From Rhodobacter sp. NTK016B (lineage in GTDB: Bacteria; Pseudomonadota; Alphaproteobacteria; Rhodobacterales; Rhodobacteraceae): a stretch of DNA of 64,000 nucleotides. The first letter of the stretch is position 1; each line of letters begins with the position of its first letter. The notes beneath the pieces are model-generated. The model ran no database searches, was not told the origin of the DNA, and saw nothing but the letters and a program-made list of their open reading frames with translations. Made by a program: the position numbers and the translations under genes. The DNA is taken from contig NZ_JAFKOK010000006.1 of the NCBI RefSeq assembly GCF_017303295.1, forward strand, positions 62,001-126,000, read 5' to 3'. Shown here in pieces: positions 56,731 through 64,000 of the stretch.

Positions 56731-57441
56731 ATGCGCCCTTCGGGAAGAAATCTAGATGAAATGCGAGTGGTTTCAATCGAAACCGGAGTGATGCGGCATG
56801 CGGAAGGGTCTTGTCTGATCAAGATGGGCAATACCCATGTCCTGTGCACGGCCTCGGTCGAAGATCGCACGCCGCCTTTCCTGAAGAATACCGGGTTGGG
56901 CTGGGTCACCGCCGAATACGGTATGCTGCCGCGCGCCACCAACAAGCGCAACCGGCGCGAAGCCGCGACCGGCAAGCAAGGCGGGCGCACGATCGAGATC
57001 CAGCGCCTGATCGGGCGGTCGCTGCGCGCGGGCATTGACCGCTCGGCGATGGGTGAGCGGCAGATCACCGTCGATTGCGACGTGATCCAGGCCGATGGCG
57101 GGACGCGTTGCGCCTCGATCACCGGCGGCTGGGTGGCGCTGGAAATGGCGATCCGCACCCTGATGAAGACGGGGGCCATCGCGACCAATCCGATCATCGG
57201 CAATGTCGCAGCAGTATCCTGCGGGCTTTATGCCGGGCAGCCGGTTCTGGATCTCGATTACGACGAAGACAGCGCGGCCGGCGTTGACGGAAACTTCATC
57301 CTTCTGGATGACGGTCGTATGATCGAAGTACAGATGTCGGGCGAAGGCACGGTCTTCTCGCGGGACGATATGGACAACATGTTGGCGCTGGCGTCGAAAG
57401 GCGTGGGTGAGCTGGTCGCGGCGCAAAAGGCCGCATTGTGA
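56731..57441 (+). CDS. rph: Ribonuclease PH
   Basis: Phosphorolytic 3'-5' exoribonuclease that trims tRNA 3' ends, 236 aa. Signatures: [12 protein letters not shown] at the start, [37 protein letters not shown] in outline (phosphate and RNA binding), and [15 protein letters not shown] at the end. ATG 56731 follows GAGGATCCGGAC. The stop overlaps the GTG start of rdgB. It leads the rph-rdgB-hemW operon. Confidence 0.96.
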
Positions 57442-58034
57442 CCCTGCGCGGCGAAACCCTGCTATTCGCGACCCACAATGCGGGCAAAGTCGAAGAGCTG
57501 CGGCAATTGCTGGCGCCGCATGGCGTGTCGATCATCTCTGCAGCCGAGAAGGGCCTGCCTGAACCGGAAGAAACCGAGACGACCTTTGTCGGTAATGCCC
57601 GGATCAAGGCGCATGCAGCGGCAAAGGCCACTGGGTTGCCGGCATTGGCCGACGATTCCGGGCTGTGTGTCGACGCTCTCGATGGTGCGCCTGGCGTCTA
57701 TACGGCGGATTGGGCGGAAGGGCCCGGCGGGCGCGATTTCATGCGAGCGATGACGCGGACCCACACGGAATTGCAGGGCAAGGACACGCCGTGGCACGCC
57801 GAATTTCGCTGCACGCTGGTGATGGCGTGGCCCGATGGGCGCGACGAGGTATTCGAAGGGTCGGTGCCCGGGCATCTGGTCTGGCCAGTTCGGGGGGCTC
57901 TGGGCCATGGATATGACCCTATGTTCGTGCCGGAAGGTCACGAACGGACCTTTGCCGAGATGACGGCGACAGAAAAGAACACGCTGTCGCATCGGGCCCG
58001 CGCGCTGTCTGCGTTTCTCGAGCGTTTCACGTGA
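57438..58034 (+). CDS. rdgB: dITP/XTP pyrophosphatase (Ham1)
   Basis: Clears non-canonical purine triphosphates, 198 aa. Motifs: [17 protein letters not shown] for nucleotide binding, [25 protein letters not shown], and [20 protein letters not shown] near the C terminus. It starts at GTG 57438, overlapping rph's stop, and its final codons and stop lie within a parS palindrome that also contains the start of hemW. Confidence 0.95.
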
Positions 58035-58038
58035 AACA
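58023..58038. promoter_or_regulatory. parS centromere-like site 1 (rdgB/hemW junction)
   Basis: CGTTTCACGTGAAACA matches the 16-bp alphaproteobacterial parS TGTTTCACGTGAAACA at 15 of 16 positions. The central GTG is the start codon of hemW and the TGA overlapping it ends rdgB. It is a likely ParB nucleation site. Confidence 0.9.
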
Positions 58039-59194
58039 CTCCATCGCCGAAGATTGGCGGAACGGCGGGTTCGCATTGTATGTGCACTGGCCGTTCTGCA
58101 CGGCGAAATGCCCCTATTGCGACTTCAACAGCCACGTCGTTTCGCGCATCTCGCACGCAGATTGGCGCGAGGCCTATCTGCGCGAAATTGACCGCTGGGC
58201 GGAGATAACAAGCGGTCGGGTGCTGACATCGATCTTTTTCGGCGGCGGCACGCCGTCATTGATGCAACCAGAAACGGTCGCTGCGGTCATCAATGCAGCG
58301 AAATCCAGCTGGCACGCGTCGAACAACCTTGAAGTGACGTTGGAAGCGAATCCGACATCGGTCGATTTTGAGCGTTTTCAGGGATTTTCCGATGCCGGGG
58401 TGAACCGGCTATCCTTGGGCGTACAGGCGTTGAACGACGCCGATCTGGCGAAGCTGGGCCGATTGCACAGCGTCGAAGAGGCGATGAAGGCCTGGGAGAT
58501 CGCCAATTCCGTTTTCTCGCGCACGAGTCTTGACCTGATCTATGCCCGCCAGCATCAAACGGCAGAGGATTGGGACCGTGAACTGGCCACCGCTCTGGCG
58601 CTTAAACCCAGCCATATGTCGCTGTACCAGCTAACCATCGAGCCCGGGACCGCCTTTGGAGACCGTCACGCGCGCGGGCGGCTAGGCGGGCTGCCATCCG
58701 AAGATTTGGGCGCGGACCTGTGGCAAATCACACAGGATCAATGCAACGCGGCGGGATTGACGGCCTACGAAGTGTCAAACCACGCTTTCAAGGGTCTGGA
58801 ATCACAGCATAATTTGGTCTATTGGCGTTACGGTGACTATGTCGGTATCGGCCCGGGCGCGCATGGTCGGGTTACGACGCAGCAGGGTCGGATCGCATCC
58901 GTTGCCGCGCGTCAGCCCGGTGACTGGCTTTCCAAAGTCAATAGGCAGGTCAGCGCGGATGAAATCAGCGTTCTGACAATCGACGAGCAGGCCGATGAAC
59001 TGCTCTTAATGGGATTGCGGCTTTCCGAAGGTATCGACCTGGAGCGCTATACAGCACTGAGAGGCTCCACCCTGCGCGCGCAAACCTTGTCGGAATTGTC
59101 TGATATGGGCCTGATCTGGCGCGATGGAACGCGAATGGGCGCCACAGAGACCGGGCGCCCCTTGCTGAATTCACTGCTCAGAGAGCTTTTGTAG
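58031..59194 (+). CDS. hemW: Radical SAM haem chaperone HemW (HemN-like)
   Basis: A 387-aa radical-SAM protein. The [4Fe-4S]/SAM motif is CTAKCPYCDF, preceded by the YVHWPFC that HemW uses for haem. It has FFGGGTPSL and VTLEANPTSVDFERF and ends with a HemN-type C-terminal domain. It lacks features needed for true coproporphyrinogen III dehydrogenase, so the older name hemN is unsafe. The start is GTG 58031, overlapping the rdgB stop and lying inside parS. It ends 6 nt before the convergent parB gene. Confidence 0.93.
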   Translation: MKHSIAEDWRNGGFALYVHWPFCTAKCPYCDFNSHVVSRISHADWREAYLREIDRWAEITSGRVLTSIFFGGGTPSLMQPETVAAVINAAKSSWHASNNLEVTLEANPTSVDFERFQGFSDAGVNRLSLGVQALNDADLAKLGRLHSVEEAMKAWEIANSVFSRTSLDLIYARQHQTAEDWDRELATALALKPSHMSLYQLTIEPGTAFGDRHARGRLGGLPSEDLGADLWQITQDQCNAAGLTAYEVSNHAFKGLESQHNLVYWRYGDYVGIGPGAHGRVTTQQGRIASVAARQPGDWLSKVNRQVSADEISVLTIDEQADELLLMGLRLSEGIDLERYTALRGSTLRAQTLSELSDMGLIWRDGTRMGATETGRPLLNSLLRELL

Positions 59195-59200
59195 CCCGCC

Positions 59201-60106
59201 TCAGCGCACCGATGACAGCAATTGGCAAAGCTGATCAAGCTGCTCAAGCGTCTTGTAGCGAATGGTTACCTGCCCTTCGCCGCCAGCGCGATGGTCAATC
59301 GCGACACCCATGCCCAGATTTGCCGACAAATCCTCTTCCAGCGCACGGGTATCGGTATCTTTCTGCGGATTGCGACGCACCGATGGGTTGACCGGCGGCA
59401 CAGACATGCGGCGCGCGAGATCTTCGGTTTCACGCACCGAAAGCCCCTCCCCCGCCGCTCGCATGGCAAGCTTCACCGGATCCTCGGCCGTCACCAAAGC
59501 ACGCGCATGCCCCGCCGAGATGGTTCCCACAACCACCATATTCTGAACTTCGGCCGGAAGATTCAGAAGTCTCAGCAGGTTTGCGATATGGCTTCGGCTC
59601 TTGCCGAGCGCTTCGGCAATCTTCTCCTGCGTATGGCCGAATTTGTCGATCAGCTGACGATAGCCGGTCGCTTCCTCGATCGCGTTGAGCCCTTCGCGCT
59701 GGATGTTCTCGATAATTGCAACTTCGAGGACTTCCTGATCATCGAATTGCCGCACCACCACAGGCAGGGTCGATAGTTGCGCAAGCTGCGCCGCACGCCA
59801 ACGGCGTTCACCAGCAACGATTTCGTAATGGTCCGCTTGCCGCGGCGAGGGGCGCACAACGAGAGGCTGAACGATGCCCTTCGACTTGATCGATTCGCTA
59901 AGCTCACCCAGTGCGCGCTCGTCGAACTTTCGACGCGGCTGATCCGGGTTTGCTTCGATCAACTCGATCGGCAGTTGCTCGACACGCGCACCAGAGGTCG
60001 GTTGCACTGCCTCAGGGTTTGTCTCTTTGGCGTCAATTCCGACATCCGCCATCAGCGCCGACAAACCGCGCCCCAAACCCCGACGTGACTGCTTTCGCTC
60101 TGTCAT
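59201..60106 (-). CDS. parB: Chromosome partitioning protein ParB
   Basis: CTP-dependent DNA clamp that loads at parS, 301 aa. It has an N-terminal ParA-stimulating basic segment (KQSRRGLGRGLSALM), the LPIELIEANPDQPRRKFDE and GERRWRAAQLA CTP-binding motifs, the helix-turn-helix region FGHTQEKIAEALGKSRSHIANLLRL and a C-terminal dimer domain (VTIRYKTLEQLDQLCQLL). It starts at ATG 60106, sharing one base with the parA stop (TGATG). Three parS sites lie within 3.3 kb. Confidence 0.96.
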   Translation of the reverse strand: MTERKQSRRGLGRGLSALMADVGIDAKETNPEAVQPTSGARVEQLPIELIEANPDQPRRKFDERALGELSESIKSKGIVQPLVVRPSPRQADHYEIVAGERRWRAAQLAQLSTLPVVVRQFDDQEVLEVAIIENIQREGLNAIEEATGYRQLIDKFGHTQEKIAEALGKSRSHIANLLRLLNLPAEVQNMVVVGTISAGHARALVTAEDPVKLAMRAAGEGLSVRETEDLARRMSVPPVNPSVRRNPQKDTDTRALEEDLSANLGMGVAIDHRAGGEGQVTIRYKTLEQLDQLCQLLSSVR

Positions 60107-60894
60107 CAGGATTCTCCTCGCATATCGTTGTTATTCTTCAAGAATTCCTCCGCAAAAGTACGATAGGCCTGCGCCCCTTTCGAGCTGGGATCGTAGGTGA
60201 TCGCCGGAACGGAGAATGACGGAGCCTCGCTCAATCGTACATTGCGCGGGATAACGGTCTGGTAAACGAGATCGCCCAGAGTGTCACGCGCGTCCCGCTC
60301 GACCTGCTGTGAGAGGTTGTTCCGCTGGTCATGCATGGTCAGCAGAATGCCCTCGACACGCAGCGCATTGTTGGCCGTCTGGCGTATCTCTCGGATGGTG
60401 AGCATCAATTGTGAAAGCCCTTCAAGCGCGAAGAACTCACTTTGCAGAGGGATAAGCACGGAATGCGCAGCAACCAGCGCATTGACGGTCAGAAGGTTCA
60501 GCGACGGGGGGCAGTCGATCAACACATAGTCGAAATTCATCGTAGCAAGCGCCGGGCTTGCCAAGGAATCCTTCAACAAGTAGCTGCGCTTGTTGACGTT
60601 ATAGAGCTGTACATCGGACGACGACAGCTCGGTCGTCGAAGGGATCAGGCTGACGCCCGGTGTTTCAGTCTCGACAATTGCGGACTCCGGTGATGCTTCG
60701 GCCAACAGAAGATCGTAAATGGTCTCCTGCCGTTGATCGAGGAGGATGCCTAGCCCGGTAGAGGCGTTGCCTTGAGGGTCCATATCCACCACCAGAACCT
60801 TGCGCCCCTTTTCGGCAAGGCTGGCTGCGAGATTGATGGCCGTGGTTGTTTTGGCGACTCCGCCCTTTTGGTTCGCGATCGCAATGATTTTCAT
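60106..60894 (-). CDS. parA: Chromosome partitioning ATPase ParA
   Basis: A 262-aa deviant Walker A ATPase that moves ParB-parS complexes. The P-loop is [17 protein letters not shown], with Walker A' [17 protein letters not shown] and Walker [17 protein letters not shown]. It starts at ATG 60894, overlapping the rsmG stop (ATGA), and is translated together with parB. Confidence 0.97.
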
Positions 60895-61535
60895 GTGAAG
60901 CTGTCCAACCGGCGAAGTTTTTTTACAGTGAGAATGACGCTGTCAGGGTCGACGCGACTATCCTGAATATCATACTCGAAGTGCCATGATTGACGCGCCT
61001 CTTCAAGCTCTTGGCGCCACTGACGTCCCTTTGAAAGAATGCCCGATCCATCCGACGTCAGATGCCGCGAGCAATAGTGCAGCAGGGCCGGTAGTGGAGC
61101 CAGCGCTCTTGCGGACACGATCTCGGCGCCAATCGACGGTGCAGCTTCGATCCGCTCCGTGATCACACGTGTGTTTAGTCCCAACTGATCCGAAATTATT
61201 TTCATAAACGCCGATTTCCTCTTATCCGATTCGATCAACGTAATGATTGAGGACGGTGAGGTTTCACGGGCAATGATGCTCACTACGATGCCCGGCAGCC
61301 CCCCACCGGATCCGATATCGCACCAAGAGCGCGGGAACACCGCAGGTGCGGATTTAATCACCTGAAGGGAATCGACGATGTGTCGGGACCAGATATCGCT
61401 GTGTGTCGTGGGCGCGATCAGGTTGATTTTTCTTGACCACGTCAGCAAGGCCTGCGCATAGACATCAAGGCGATCAACTGTTTCACGTGAAACATCGAAT
61501 CCCAACGCATCCGCCGCTTCTTCACTGTGTGACAC
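60891..61535 (-). CDS. rsmG: 16S rRNA (guanine527-N7)-methyltransferase RsmG (GidB)
   Basis: Methylates G527 of 16S rRNA, 214 aa. The SAM loop is [15 protein letters not shown] and [11 protein letters not shown] is the conserved upstream motif. It starts at GTG 61535, overlapping the mnmG stop by 14 nt. Codons 14-19 (DVSRET) are spelled by a perfect parS palindrome, as in other bacteria where parS lies in this gene. Confidence 0.95.
61479..61494. promoter_or_regulatory. parS site 2 (within rsmG)
   Basis: TGTTTCACGTGAAACA, a perfect 16-bp palindrome, lies within the coding sequence of rsmG near its start. It matches the parS consensus at all 16 positions. Confidence 0.93.
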
Positions 61536-63390
61536 GGCGCTTCTTGCCCTGAAGATGGATATGCGCCAACAGAGCTGAAACTGCTGCGGGTGTCATTCCC
61601 TCGATTCTTTCGACGTCGGCAATCGTCTCGGGAGCAACGCGAGAGAGCTTTGATCTCAGTTCGTTTGAAAGCGACGATATAGCCATGTAGTCGATTGTTG
61701 CGGGTATCACCACCGCGCTTTCGCGCTTCAGTTTTTCCACTTCACGCTTTTGACGATCAAGGTAGGGTTCATAGAACGTGTCCCGCGCAATCTGCTCAAT
61801 ATCGGCAATCTCCGCATCGCCGAAATAGGTTCCCATCACTGAAACGGGTCGCTTCTCTGAGACAAGTTGGGCGCTGAGGTCCCGCCAGTTCCGCTTACGC
61901 CCGCTTCTGACAGTCGAAATATCGAGTTCTTCCATGACCTCTGCGGGAACGGTGCTGCCTTCCATCTCGGCTCTAAGGGAAGACATGCGCAACATCTTGT
62001 GTTCAAACACGTCGCGTCGCCGATCCGTCACCAATCCATAGTCAAAACCAAGCTGGGTCAGCCGTTGGTCTGCGTTGTCTGCACGGATACTCAACCGATA
62101 CTCAGCGCGAGAGGTGAACATACGATAAGGTTCGCTGACACCACGGTGGATAAGGTCATCGACCATCACACCGATGTAACTGTCGAAGCGAGAGAGTGTC
62201 AGCGGCGCCTCATTCAAGGCACACGCAGCAGCATTCGCCCCGGCGAGCAAGCCCTGCGCCCCGGCTTCTTCATAGCCAGTTGTGCCGTTGATCTGGCCCG
62301 CCAGGAACAAACCTTCGATTTCGCGGTGCTCCAAGTTGCTATGCAGACCACGTGGATCGAGATAGTCGTATTCGATAGCATATCCGAAATGGCGAACTTC
62401 AACATTCTTCAACCCTTTGATAGATTGAAGAAATTTCAACTGAACGCCCTGGGGTAGCGACGTGGAAATGCCGTTGGGGTAAACCAAATCACTGGTTAGC
62501 CCTTCCGGCTCGAGAAATACGTTGTGCTCTGCTTTGTCGACAAAACGTACAACCTTATCTTCGATAGAGGGGCAGTAGCGAGGCCCAACGCCAGAAATAT
62601 TGCCCACATGCATAGCCGACAGGTGCAGGTTGGCCGAAATGATCTCATGCGTATGCGGATTGGTTTCCGTCACGCCACACGGGACCTGCCGTTCTTGAAT
62701 CGCCTTGGTCTCAAATGACAAGAACTCAGGTTCTTCATCGCCAGGCTGCTGGCCAACCAAATCCCAGTTGATACTCGACGCAACCAGACGCGCCGGTGTC
62801 CCCGTCTTCAAGCGACCTACGCCGTGAGCAGCCTCGCGCAACCGGTCTCCGAAACGTTCGGCTGCTGGCGATCCGCGGCGACCGGCTTTGATCCGTTCTG
62901 TCCCGATATGGATCTCTCCCCGAAGAAAGGTCCCCGTGGCGAGAACAACCGCGCGCGCTTGAATTTCGCTTCTGTCGGCCAAAATAACGGCCTGCACGCC
63001 GCCTGCCTCCACACGCAGATCAACCACTTCAGCTTCGATAACGTCGAGACCTTGTTGCGCACTGACATAGCGCTGAACGAATTCTGCATAACGATCGCGA
63101 TCGGCCTGCACGCGCGGCCCCTGTACTGCCGGACCGCGCGATCTGTTAAGTAACCGATATTGAATCGCCGCGTAGTCACCCGCGTGAGCCATCATCCCGT
63201 CAAGCGCGTCAATCTCGCGCACCAGATGACCTTTGCCGATCCCACCGATCGCCGGATTACACGACATGATTCCCAGATCGCTCTTGCGAAAGGTAACCAG
63301 AGCCGTACGCGCTTTCCGGCGCGCCGCTGCCAAAGCGGCTTCGACACCGGCGTGGCCGGCTCCGACGACGATGACGTCATATTGTTTCAC
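61522..63390 (-). CDS. mnmG: tRNA uridine-5-carboxymethylaminomethyl modification enzyme MnmG (GidA)
   Basis: FAD-dependent partner of MnmE in wobble uridine (cmnm5U34) modification, 622 aa. The FAD motif is VVVGAGHAGVEAALAAARR, with the conserved CNPAIGGIGKGHLVREIDALDG and AGQINGTTGYEEAGAQGL. The start codon is GTG 63390, embedded in parS site 3 (GTG AAA CAA). The gene lies 12 nt downstream of mnmE on the same strand. Confidence 0.97.
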   Translation of the reverse strand: MKQYDVIVVGAGHAGVEAALAAARRKARTALVTFRKSDLGIMSCNPAIGGIGKGHLVREIDALDGMMAHAGDYAAIQYRLLNRSRGPAVQGPRVQADRDRYAEFVQRYVSAQQGLDVIEAEVVDLRVEAGGVQAVILADRSEIQARAVVLATGTFLRGEIHIGTERIKAGRRGSPAAERFGDRLREAAHGVGRLKTGTPARLVASSINWDLVGQQPGDEEPEFLSFETKAIQERQVPCGVTETNPHTHEIISANLHLSAMHVGNISGVGPRYCPSIEDKVVRFVDKAEHNVFLEPEGLTSDLVYPNGISTSLPQGVQLKFLQSIKGLKNVEVRHFGYAIEYDYLDPRGLHSNLEHREIEGLFLAGQINGTTGYEEAGAQGLLAGANAAACALNEAPLTLSRFDSYIGVMVDDLIHRGVSEPYRMFTSRAEYRLSIRADNADQRLTQLGFDYGLVTDRRRDVFEHKMLRMSSLRAEMEGSTVPAEVMEELDISTVRSGRKRNWRDLSAQLVSEKRPVSVMGTYFGDAEIADIEQIARDTFYEPYLDRQKREVEKLKRESAVVIPATIDYMAISSLSNELRSKLSRVAPETIADVERIEGMTPAAVSALLAHIHLQGKKRRVTQ

Positions 63391-63398
63391 GTGAAACA
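63383..63398. promoter_or_regulatory. parS site 3 (mnmG start)
   Basis: TGTTTCACGTGAAACA, perfect over 16 bp, covers the mnmG start codon: the GTG at the palindrome centre is translated. It lies 4 nt from the mnmE stop codon. Confidence 0.93.
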
Positions 63399-63402
63399 GT
63401 CC

Positions 63403-64000
63403 CTACTTGCCGATGCAGAACGACGCAAAGATCCGCCCAAGCACGTCTTCTACATCGACACGCCCGATAATGCCATCCAAAGCCCGGATCCCGGCCTTCA
63501 CATCTTCCGACACAAGGTCCCAGTCAACACCCCGTCCCAGAGCGTCGAGCGCCGCATCAATCCTCTCCTGAGCCCGCGTCAATTTGTCGAAATGCCGCTC
63601 GCGGGTGAACACCGAACTGTCCTGCGCTCGGTCGCGAAGTTCATCTGTAATTCGCCCGACAAGATCGGATATACCCTGCCCGTTCTGCGCCGAAAGCCCC
63701 TCAATTCCCCAAAGATCCGCCTTCGACAGCGCGACGATATCGCCGTCCACCACGTTTACAGGCTCTTCATCAGGGGAACTTTGCAGAAATACCCGAAGAT
63801 CGGCGCGGGCCGCACGGGACTGACCGCGCTCTATCCCCGTCTGCTCGATCTCATCATCGGACTCGCGGAGACCAGCCGTATCGATCAGCGTGACGGCTAG
63901 TCCATCGAGCTCCATCCGTACCTCGATCACGTCCCGCGTGGTACCTGCACGCGATGAGGTAATCGCGGCATCCCTGCCTGCTAATGCATTGAGAAGCGTA
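63403..64000 (-). CDS. mnmE: tRNA modification GTPase MnmE (5' part outside window)
   Basis: C-terminal part of MnmE, which works with MnmG. Visible are the G-domain G2 segment GTTRDVIEV, G3 DTAGLRESDDEIEQTGIERG, a G4-like SKADL, and the C-terminal FCIGK with the cysteine-ended motif needed for catalysis. About 199 codons are present and the frame runs off the right edge. An internal in-frame GTG at 63930 is not the true start. It is the first visible gene of the minus-strand origin-proximal operon. Confidence 0.95.
   Translation of the reverse strand, partial: TLLNALAGRDAAITSSRAGTTRDVIEVRMELDGLAVTLIDTAGLRESDDEIEQTGIERGQSRAARADLRVFLQSSPDEEPVNVVDGDIVALSKADLWGIEGLSAQNGQGISDLVGRITDELRDRAQDSSVFTRERHFDKLTRAQERIDAALDALGRGVDWDLVSEDVKAGIRALDGIIGRVDVEDVLGRIFASFCIGK

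Follow-up and report, generated by a model that had tools for sequence, protein, structure and literature searches.

We analyzed a 64,000-nucleotide stretch of the Rhodobacter sp. NTK016B genome (contig NZ_JAFKOK010000006.1, positions 62,001 to 126,000; hereafter, the window), in which three copies of a palindrome, TGTTTCACGTGAAACA, lie beside the partition genes parA and parB. Our analysis suggests that these palindromes are ordinary centromeric parS sites that are conserved as DNA and impose start codons, stop codons, and amino acid residues on the genes that host them. We put the probability of this reading at roughly 0.8; ParB binding, use of these start codons by the ribosome, and the direction of evolution are parts of it that we infer from sequence. 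The likely role of the sites is segregation. The three palindromes would form a chromosomal parS cluster, on which the ParB protein encoded between them would load.

A scan of the window for TGTTTCACGTGAAACA with up to three mismatches returned exactly three matches and thereby confirmed the palindromes listed in a first-pass annotation of this DNA: one at 58,023–58,038 (CGTTTCACGTGAAACA, one mismatch) and two perfect sites (16/16) at 61,479–61,494 and 63,383–63,398. Shuffled windows contained a mean of 0.11 matches and a maximum of two at the same threshold and never reached three. Eight CACGTG hexamers occur in the window; three are within TTTCACGTGAAA, all at the three parS sites. When the whole genome was scanned (4,842,026 bases in 86 contigs), sites with zero or one mismatch were restricted to the same three, which span at most 5.4 kb around parAB and are thus few and clustered. 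A single site with two mismatches lies on the same contig, ~28 kb past the window (C65:154103-154118, locus L004); this weak parS-like sequence, CGTTTCACGTGCAACA, is inside a 591-codon open frame. Three sites with three mismatches are all on other contigs. Between the outer parS sites are parB (59,201–60,106), whose product has N-terminal, helix-turn-helix, and C-terminal domains (ParB_N, HTH_ParB, and ParB_C), and parA (60,106–60,894), which encodes a ParA-type ATPase; both are on the minus strand.

The parS 16-mer can be translated in three frames, which yield V-S-R-E-T; F-H-V-K-(H/Q), where V is GTG; and C-F-T-stop. All three are used in the window. The site at 61,479–61,494 is within rsmG (gidB; 60,891–61,535, minus strand), which encodes a 16S rRNA methyltransferase, and its codon frame reads D-V-S-R-E-T, as the first-pass annotation had stated. 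At 63,383–63,398, the right half of the site on the minus strand, GTG-AAA-CA, is the start of mnmG (gidA; 61,522–63,390, minus strand). The 58,023 site contains the GTG start of hemW (58,031–59,194, plus strand), which encodes a radical SAM heme chaperone. Two of the palindromes had been described as centered on the GTG codons of hemW and mnmG; since GTG occupies bases 9–11 of the 16-mer, directly to the right of the dyad, this description is correct within one base (hemW, 58,031–58,033; mnmG, 63,390–63,388 on the minus strand). What had gone unmentioned is that the 58,023 site also contains the TGA stop codon (58,032–58,034) of rdgB, which encodes an XTP/dITP diphosphatase of the Ham1 family (57,438–58,034, plus strand). 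Since the hemW GTG and the rdgB TGA share one parS, positions 58,031–58,034 constitute a GTGA stop/start overlap. The sequence variant of this site turns C-F-T-stop into R-F-T-stop.

We sampled 150 genomes of the family Rhodobacteraceae, each from a different genus. An RsmG match was present in 147 (all except G026, G063, and G120), and 140 fetched regions, two Pararhodobacter loci identified by contig scan, and the window gave a set of 143 loci. Six genomes with RsmG are not among these loci (G012, G051, G093, G105, G106, and G118); among them, the match was split or near a contig start, and G051 is likewise absent. L147, whose contig ends inside mnmG, was excluded from the mnmG counts (n = 142). 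All counts treat related genomes as if they were independent and ignore kinship. Positions, reading frames, conservation, and the correlation between GTG and parS are direct observations on these genomes. In 140 of 142 loci, the central codon of a parS (at most two mismatches) was in the mnmG frame, 9–16 codons before the GxGHAG motif. This codon was GTG in 137 loci and ATG in three. Bases 2–16 of the site were identical in 137–140 of the 140 loci, which supports the earlier proposal that the sequence is constrained both as a parS and as a start codon followed by a lysine codon.

The majority sequence directly before the mnmG parS is AGGAG, so the ribosome-binding site and the start codon are separated by the left half of parS, which serves as their spacer. 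The window has a Shine-Dalgarno-like AGGGA at this place (63,400–63,404, minus strand). Pairing with the 16S rRNA tail was better by >0.5 kcal/mol at the parS center in 125 of 140 loci; in the window, the values were −4.2 kcal/mol at the central GTG and −1.1 at the CTG at the parS edge. At mnmG, an in-frame start codon within parS is thus accompanied by a ribosome-binding site at a workable spacing. In a separate draw, parS or a variant of its center, followed by GAYRT at the mnmG distance, was found in 323 of 395 family genomes, a tally whose individual rows are available only among the matches listed.

We compared these starts with those in other families of the same class, where we read 87 of the 131 genomes with any match (a few of these being weak paralogues), using a rough rule that considers start codons 7–20 codons before the GxGHAG motif. 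Although the 420 bases preceding the MnmG motif contained a parS (at most two mismatches) in 66 of 87 outside genomes, it was in frame near the mnmG start in only five (L231, L233, L245, L269, and L280). Thus, parS is mostly upstream of mnmG in these genomes, whereas in the family it is at the mnmG start. An ATG was present 7–20 codons before the motif in 79 of 87 outside genomes versus 37 of 142 family loci, and 32 of those 37 ATGs were the parS edge and three the parS center. The start codon nearest the motif was ATG in 76 of 87 genomes outside the family and GTG in 133 of 142 loci inside it. One family genome, G054 (L174), has no parS at mnmG, and its mnmG starts with ATG-AAA-CAC; this genome, which is 97% complete, yielded no ParB match. 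The prediction that GTG would be retained only where parS is present was therefore borne out for mnmG, both by the starts inside and outside the family and by the ATG of G054.

An AGG at ribosome-binding distance before a parS was found in 15 of 385 genomes of the class and 32 of 398 genomes of the phylum; by hand count, the phylum search recovered it in 17 of 27 family members versus 15 of 371 others. These matches are known from the pattern alone and add no further start-codon cases. Outside the family, L190 has a degenerate parS, TGTTTCACATGGAACA, with its central ATG placed where rsmG begins, and this may be another gene start nested in parS.

The rsmG copy, present in 136 of 143 family loci, is as conserved as the mnmG copy and occurs class-wide (70 of 82 loci outside the family). 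Since VSRET is gone from all seven loci that lack the rsmG site, the motif follows the DNA site and not the enzyme. At both positions, parS is conserved as DNA beyond its coding content, with synonymous and upstream bases included (140 mnmG loci and 136 of 143 rsmG loci). With the window, L147, and L174 left out, the fetched region contained a further parS in 5 of 6 loci without the rsmG site versus 21 of 134 loci with it (p = 0.0008, kinship ignored), as if one parS had replaced another. The six loci are L107, L157, L160, L167, L173, and L177, and five of them have the additional site at the rdgB junction or within rsmG or parA.

The two start-codon sites of the window differ in spread, the mnmG site being family-wide and the hemW site present in few loci. 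With genes at the rdgB junction labeled by simple text patterns, a parS was found at the rdgB 3′ end in 11 of 133 loci, and the TGA stop was at the center of the site in all 11. The central GTG opens hemW in four of these: the window, L038, L039, and L157. Besides the window, the only carriers of this state among the 133 loci are thus two Pararhodobacter genomes and a single further genome, and the state requires two gains on a FastTree tree of MnmG alone, in which several nodes are weakly supported. In six of the 11 loci, the next gene encodes a RidA-like protein (one confirmed by Pfam as Ribonuc_L-PSP), which starts with GTG in five and with ATG in one, the ATG belonging to a site with CACATG at its center. 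In L170, the center of the site opens no hemW frame. Candidates for a RidA-like overlap without parS started with GTG in none of nine cases (Fisher p = 0.002 against 5 of 6, kinship ignored), while hemW overlap candidates without parS started with ATG (three), GTG (two), TTG (two), or CTG (two). The prediction that GTG accompanies parS thus held for the RidA-like genes and was weaker for hemW, where GTG was the start in 4 of 4 cases with parS, yet also in 2 of 9 without it.

Four-base stop/start overlaps of the form ATGA or GTGA are a feature of translationally coupled genes, and the GTGA of rdgB and hemW resembles them. Unlike ordinary overlaps, it is fixed by the palindrome of a ParB site; at junctions without parS, the overlap is often ATGA. 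Of the 122 loci that lack a parS at the rdgB junction, at least 57 have an rdgB that ends in Cys-Phe-x-stop, and in L064 and L092 the junction is six bases away from parS. Such ends and near-parS junctions are a ready source of new sites.

We propose that in the family ancestor, the gap between mnmE and mnmG shrank until a parS that had been upstream from earlier times came to serve as both the ribosome-binding spacer and the start codon of mnmG. The resulting layout would be AGGAG, then the eight bases TGTTTCAC, then GTG-AAA-CA. This conversion of an upstream site into a start appears to be the simplest order of events. The parS would be kept at the mnmG start because ParB needs the sequence, and mnmG would therefore be held at GTG. 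New sites would arise at the rdgB 3′ end, where the Cys-Phe-x-stop/Met-Lys overlap is already close to parS, and would there provide the stop of rdgB together with the start of its downstream neighbor, which is hemW in the window and a RidA-like gene elsewhere.

Several observations weigh against our reading of the sites. The parS of L175 is out of the mnmG frame, and the nearest-start rule gave ATG or TTG, not GTG, in nine of 142 family loci. G054 is a single loss. Five other contigs of this genome contain parS-like matches with one or two mismatches to the degenerate pattern (four forward versus two in the backward control), including two forward matches with one mismatch; given these scattered matches, its ParB may merely be too divergent for detection. 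Two of the parS-less hemW candidates begin with GTG, and the ribosome-binding site of hemW in the window is weak (−2.2 kcal/mol), although the frame fits and a weak site may be compatible with coupling through the GTGA overlap. Finally, the parS edge or a later codon may serve as the mnmG start in individual cases. Extended to all loci, this last point becomes an alternative that we consider improbable: translation of mnmG would begin three codons earlier, at the NTG on the left edge of parS (M-F-H-V-K-...), and the GTG in the middle of the site would encode an internal valine. In 136 of 140 loci, the initial two bases of the site complete an in-frame NTG; the triplet is ATG in 32 and could be a real start, 16S-tail pairing is better at the edge in 11 (by >0.5 kcal/mol), and in L231, from another family, the edge ATG comes straight after the end of mnmE. 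However, the edge NTG is missing in four loci and is CTG in four more, including the window, and the ribosome-binding site lies right against the edge triplet or overlaps with it. Moreover, mean pairing at proper spacing was weaker at the edge than at the center, both in the 88 loci with GTG at the edge (−2.7 versus −6.5) and in those with ATG (−2.75 versus −4.3). Since parS offers two in-frame NTG triplets, mnmG annotations in the family may be off by three codons.

As the mnmG parS stands first in a gene run that closes with parA and parB, its function could instead be regulatory, with bound ParB or an RNA hairpin formed by the palindrome throttling the mnmG-rsmG-parA-parB operon as feedback. 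A hairpin is predicted with a probability >0.5 in 116 of 140 leaders, and mnmG leaders fold more strongly than 102 parA and parB starts (mean −12.1 versus −9.8 kcal/mol). In Pseudomonas, overproduced ParB is reported to repress promoters near parS (PMC5521831). Despite the predicted hairpin, the start codon is no more closed than in controls (mean unpaired, 0.63 versus 0.54), and we rejected an inhibitory RNA structure. The rsmG copy controls no start, yet it is equally conserved, and a review describes genes beside parS as often unchanged after loss of ParB (PMC7022226). Regulation of mnmG by ParB or a hairpin is possible but found no support in these comparisons, and we doubt that it accounts for the site. 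It is very unlikely that the sequence is conserved for the proteins, with the M-K-H of MnmG and the VSRET of RsmG mattering to the enzymes and parS being a by-product. Both motifs are shared across the family, and G054 retains M-K-H although it has no mnmG parS; however, synonymous positions and the 7–8 bases preceding the mnmG start are equally fixed, VSRET is lost together with the rsmG site in all seven cases, and variant sites change the RsmG residues too (VSCET, VSHET, and VPRGT).

In G025, G104, and G078, which do not group together on the MnmG tree, the center of the mnmG site is CACATG, giving an ATG start. The rsmG copy has the same variant in G104 and, in the opposite orientation, in G025, whereas in G078 it stays CACGTG. 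Among 246 family genomes, CACATG was found six times at the mnmG start and the mirror change CATGTG, which would keep GTG, was never found; three of the six placements (G051, G937, and G962) are from the pattern alone, and the six may not all be independent. If ParB treats mirror sites alike, this asymmetry points to selection for ATG. Tentatively, and judging it somewhat unlikely, we suggest that such selection at mnmG has made the centromere asymmetric more than once and that in some lineages the other copy follows, even at the price of a conserved RsmG arginine (VSCET in G025 and VSHET in G104). Were this so, the start codon would drive the evolution of the centromere sequence, with translation and segregation pulling on the same base. 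A plausible competitor, for which we would still give less than even odds, is that CACATG sites are decayed parS sites that ParB does not use, where the start returned to ATG because parS was lost. The intact rsmG copy of G078 and the ParB of G104, which has no unusual residue, would fit such decay; the variant common to both copies in G025 and G104, with the remaining bases intact, would not.

We found no clear link between CACATG and a change in ParB. By a rarity rule, G104 has zero unusual ParB residues, against several each in G025 and G078; the latter two genomes have two such residues in common, but these are present in other loci too. G025 also has two parS-like sites, TGTTTCACATGAAACA and a copy with one mismatch, at C68:22408-24839. 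Close to them is a second gene for a ParB-like protein (C68:26835-27296), and this contig may belong to a plasmid or chromid with the same variant as the chromosome. In L176 (G020) and L179 (G053), both parS copies deviate from the family form. The rsmG copies are TGCTTCACGTGAAGCA in G020 and TGTTCCACGTGGAACA in G053, and the changes in RsmG residues match the altered parS in both genomes, which are possible cases of a shift in centromere sequence.

Purified Hyphomonas ParB is described as binding TGTTTCACGTGAAACA in vitro (PMC6650430), and a Caulobacter ParB-parS crystal structure contains a 20-mer with this core (PMC7383237). The window resembles these alphaproteobacterial ParABS systems in having the same 16-mer clustered near parAB. 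In Caulobacter, parS sites are reported in essential or costly genes, and a new parS is best tolerated close to the native cluster (PMC5815017). For the parS sites of Rhodobacterales repABC systems, positive selection even inside coding sequences has been proposed (PMC9040568). Although those sites are within coding sequences like the ones in the window, they belong to plasmid or chromid systems with their own RepB, are downstream of repC, and no role as a start or stop signal is described for them there. A start- or stop-codon role is also absent from the descriptions of Caulobacter and Hyphomonas parS that we examined, whereas here parS supplies both. A search of mainly open literature, covering titles and the openings of abstracts, with the main comparative parS survey outside it, found no description of parS acting as a codon for translation start or stop; an earlier mention is possible. 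The presence of parS inside genes is already known (PMC5815017; PMC9040568), and the start- and stop-codon role would be the new part.

If our reading is correct, one DNA sequence carries two unrelated constraints throughout a family, and natural reversions separate the two. The less usual start codon of mnmG, the VSRET of RsmG, and the C-F-T and R-F-T ends of RdgB would be imprints of the centromere and not of protein function. Natural variants would then make the limits on centromere sequence evolution testable.

At the end of the window, directly upstream of mnmG, is the 3′ part of mnmE (63,403–63,999, minus strand), which is cut by the window boundary and ends in a TAG stop at 63,405–63,403. 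Locus L165 (G049) contains five parS-like sites over 15 kb, and a pair of these, separated by 37 bases, is at the corresponding mnmE-mnmG junction.

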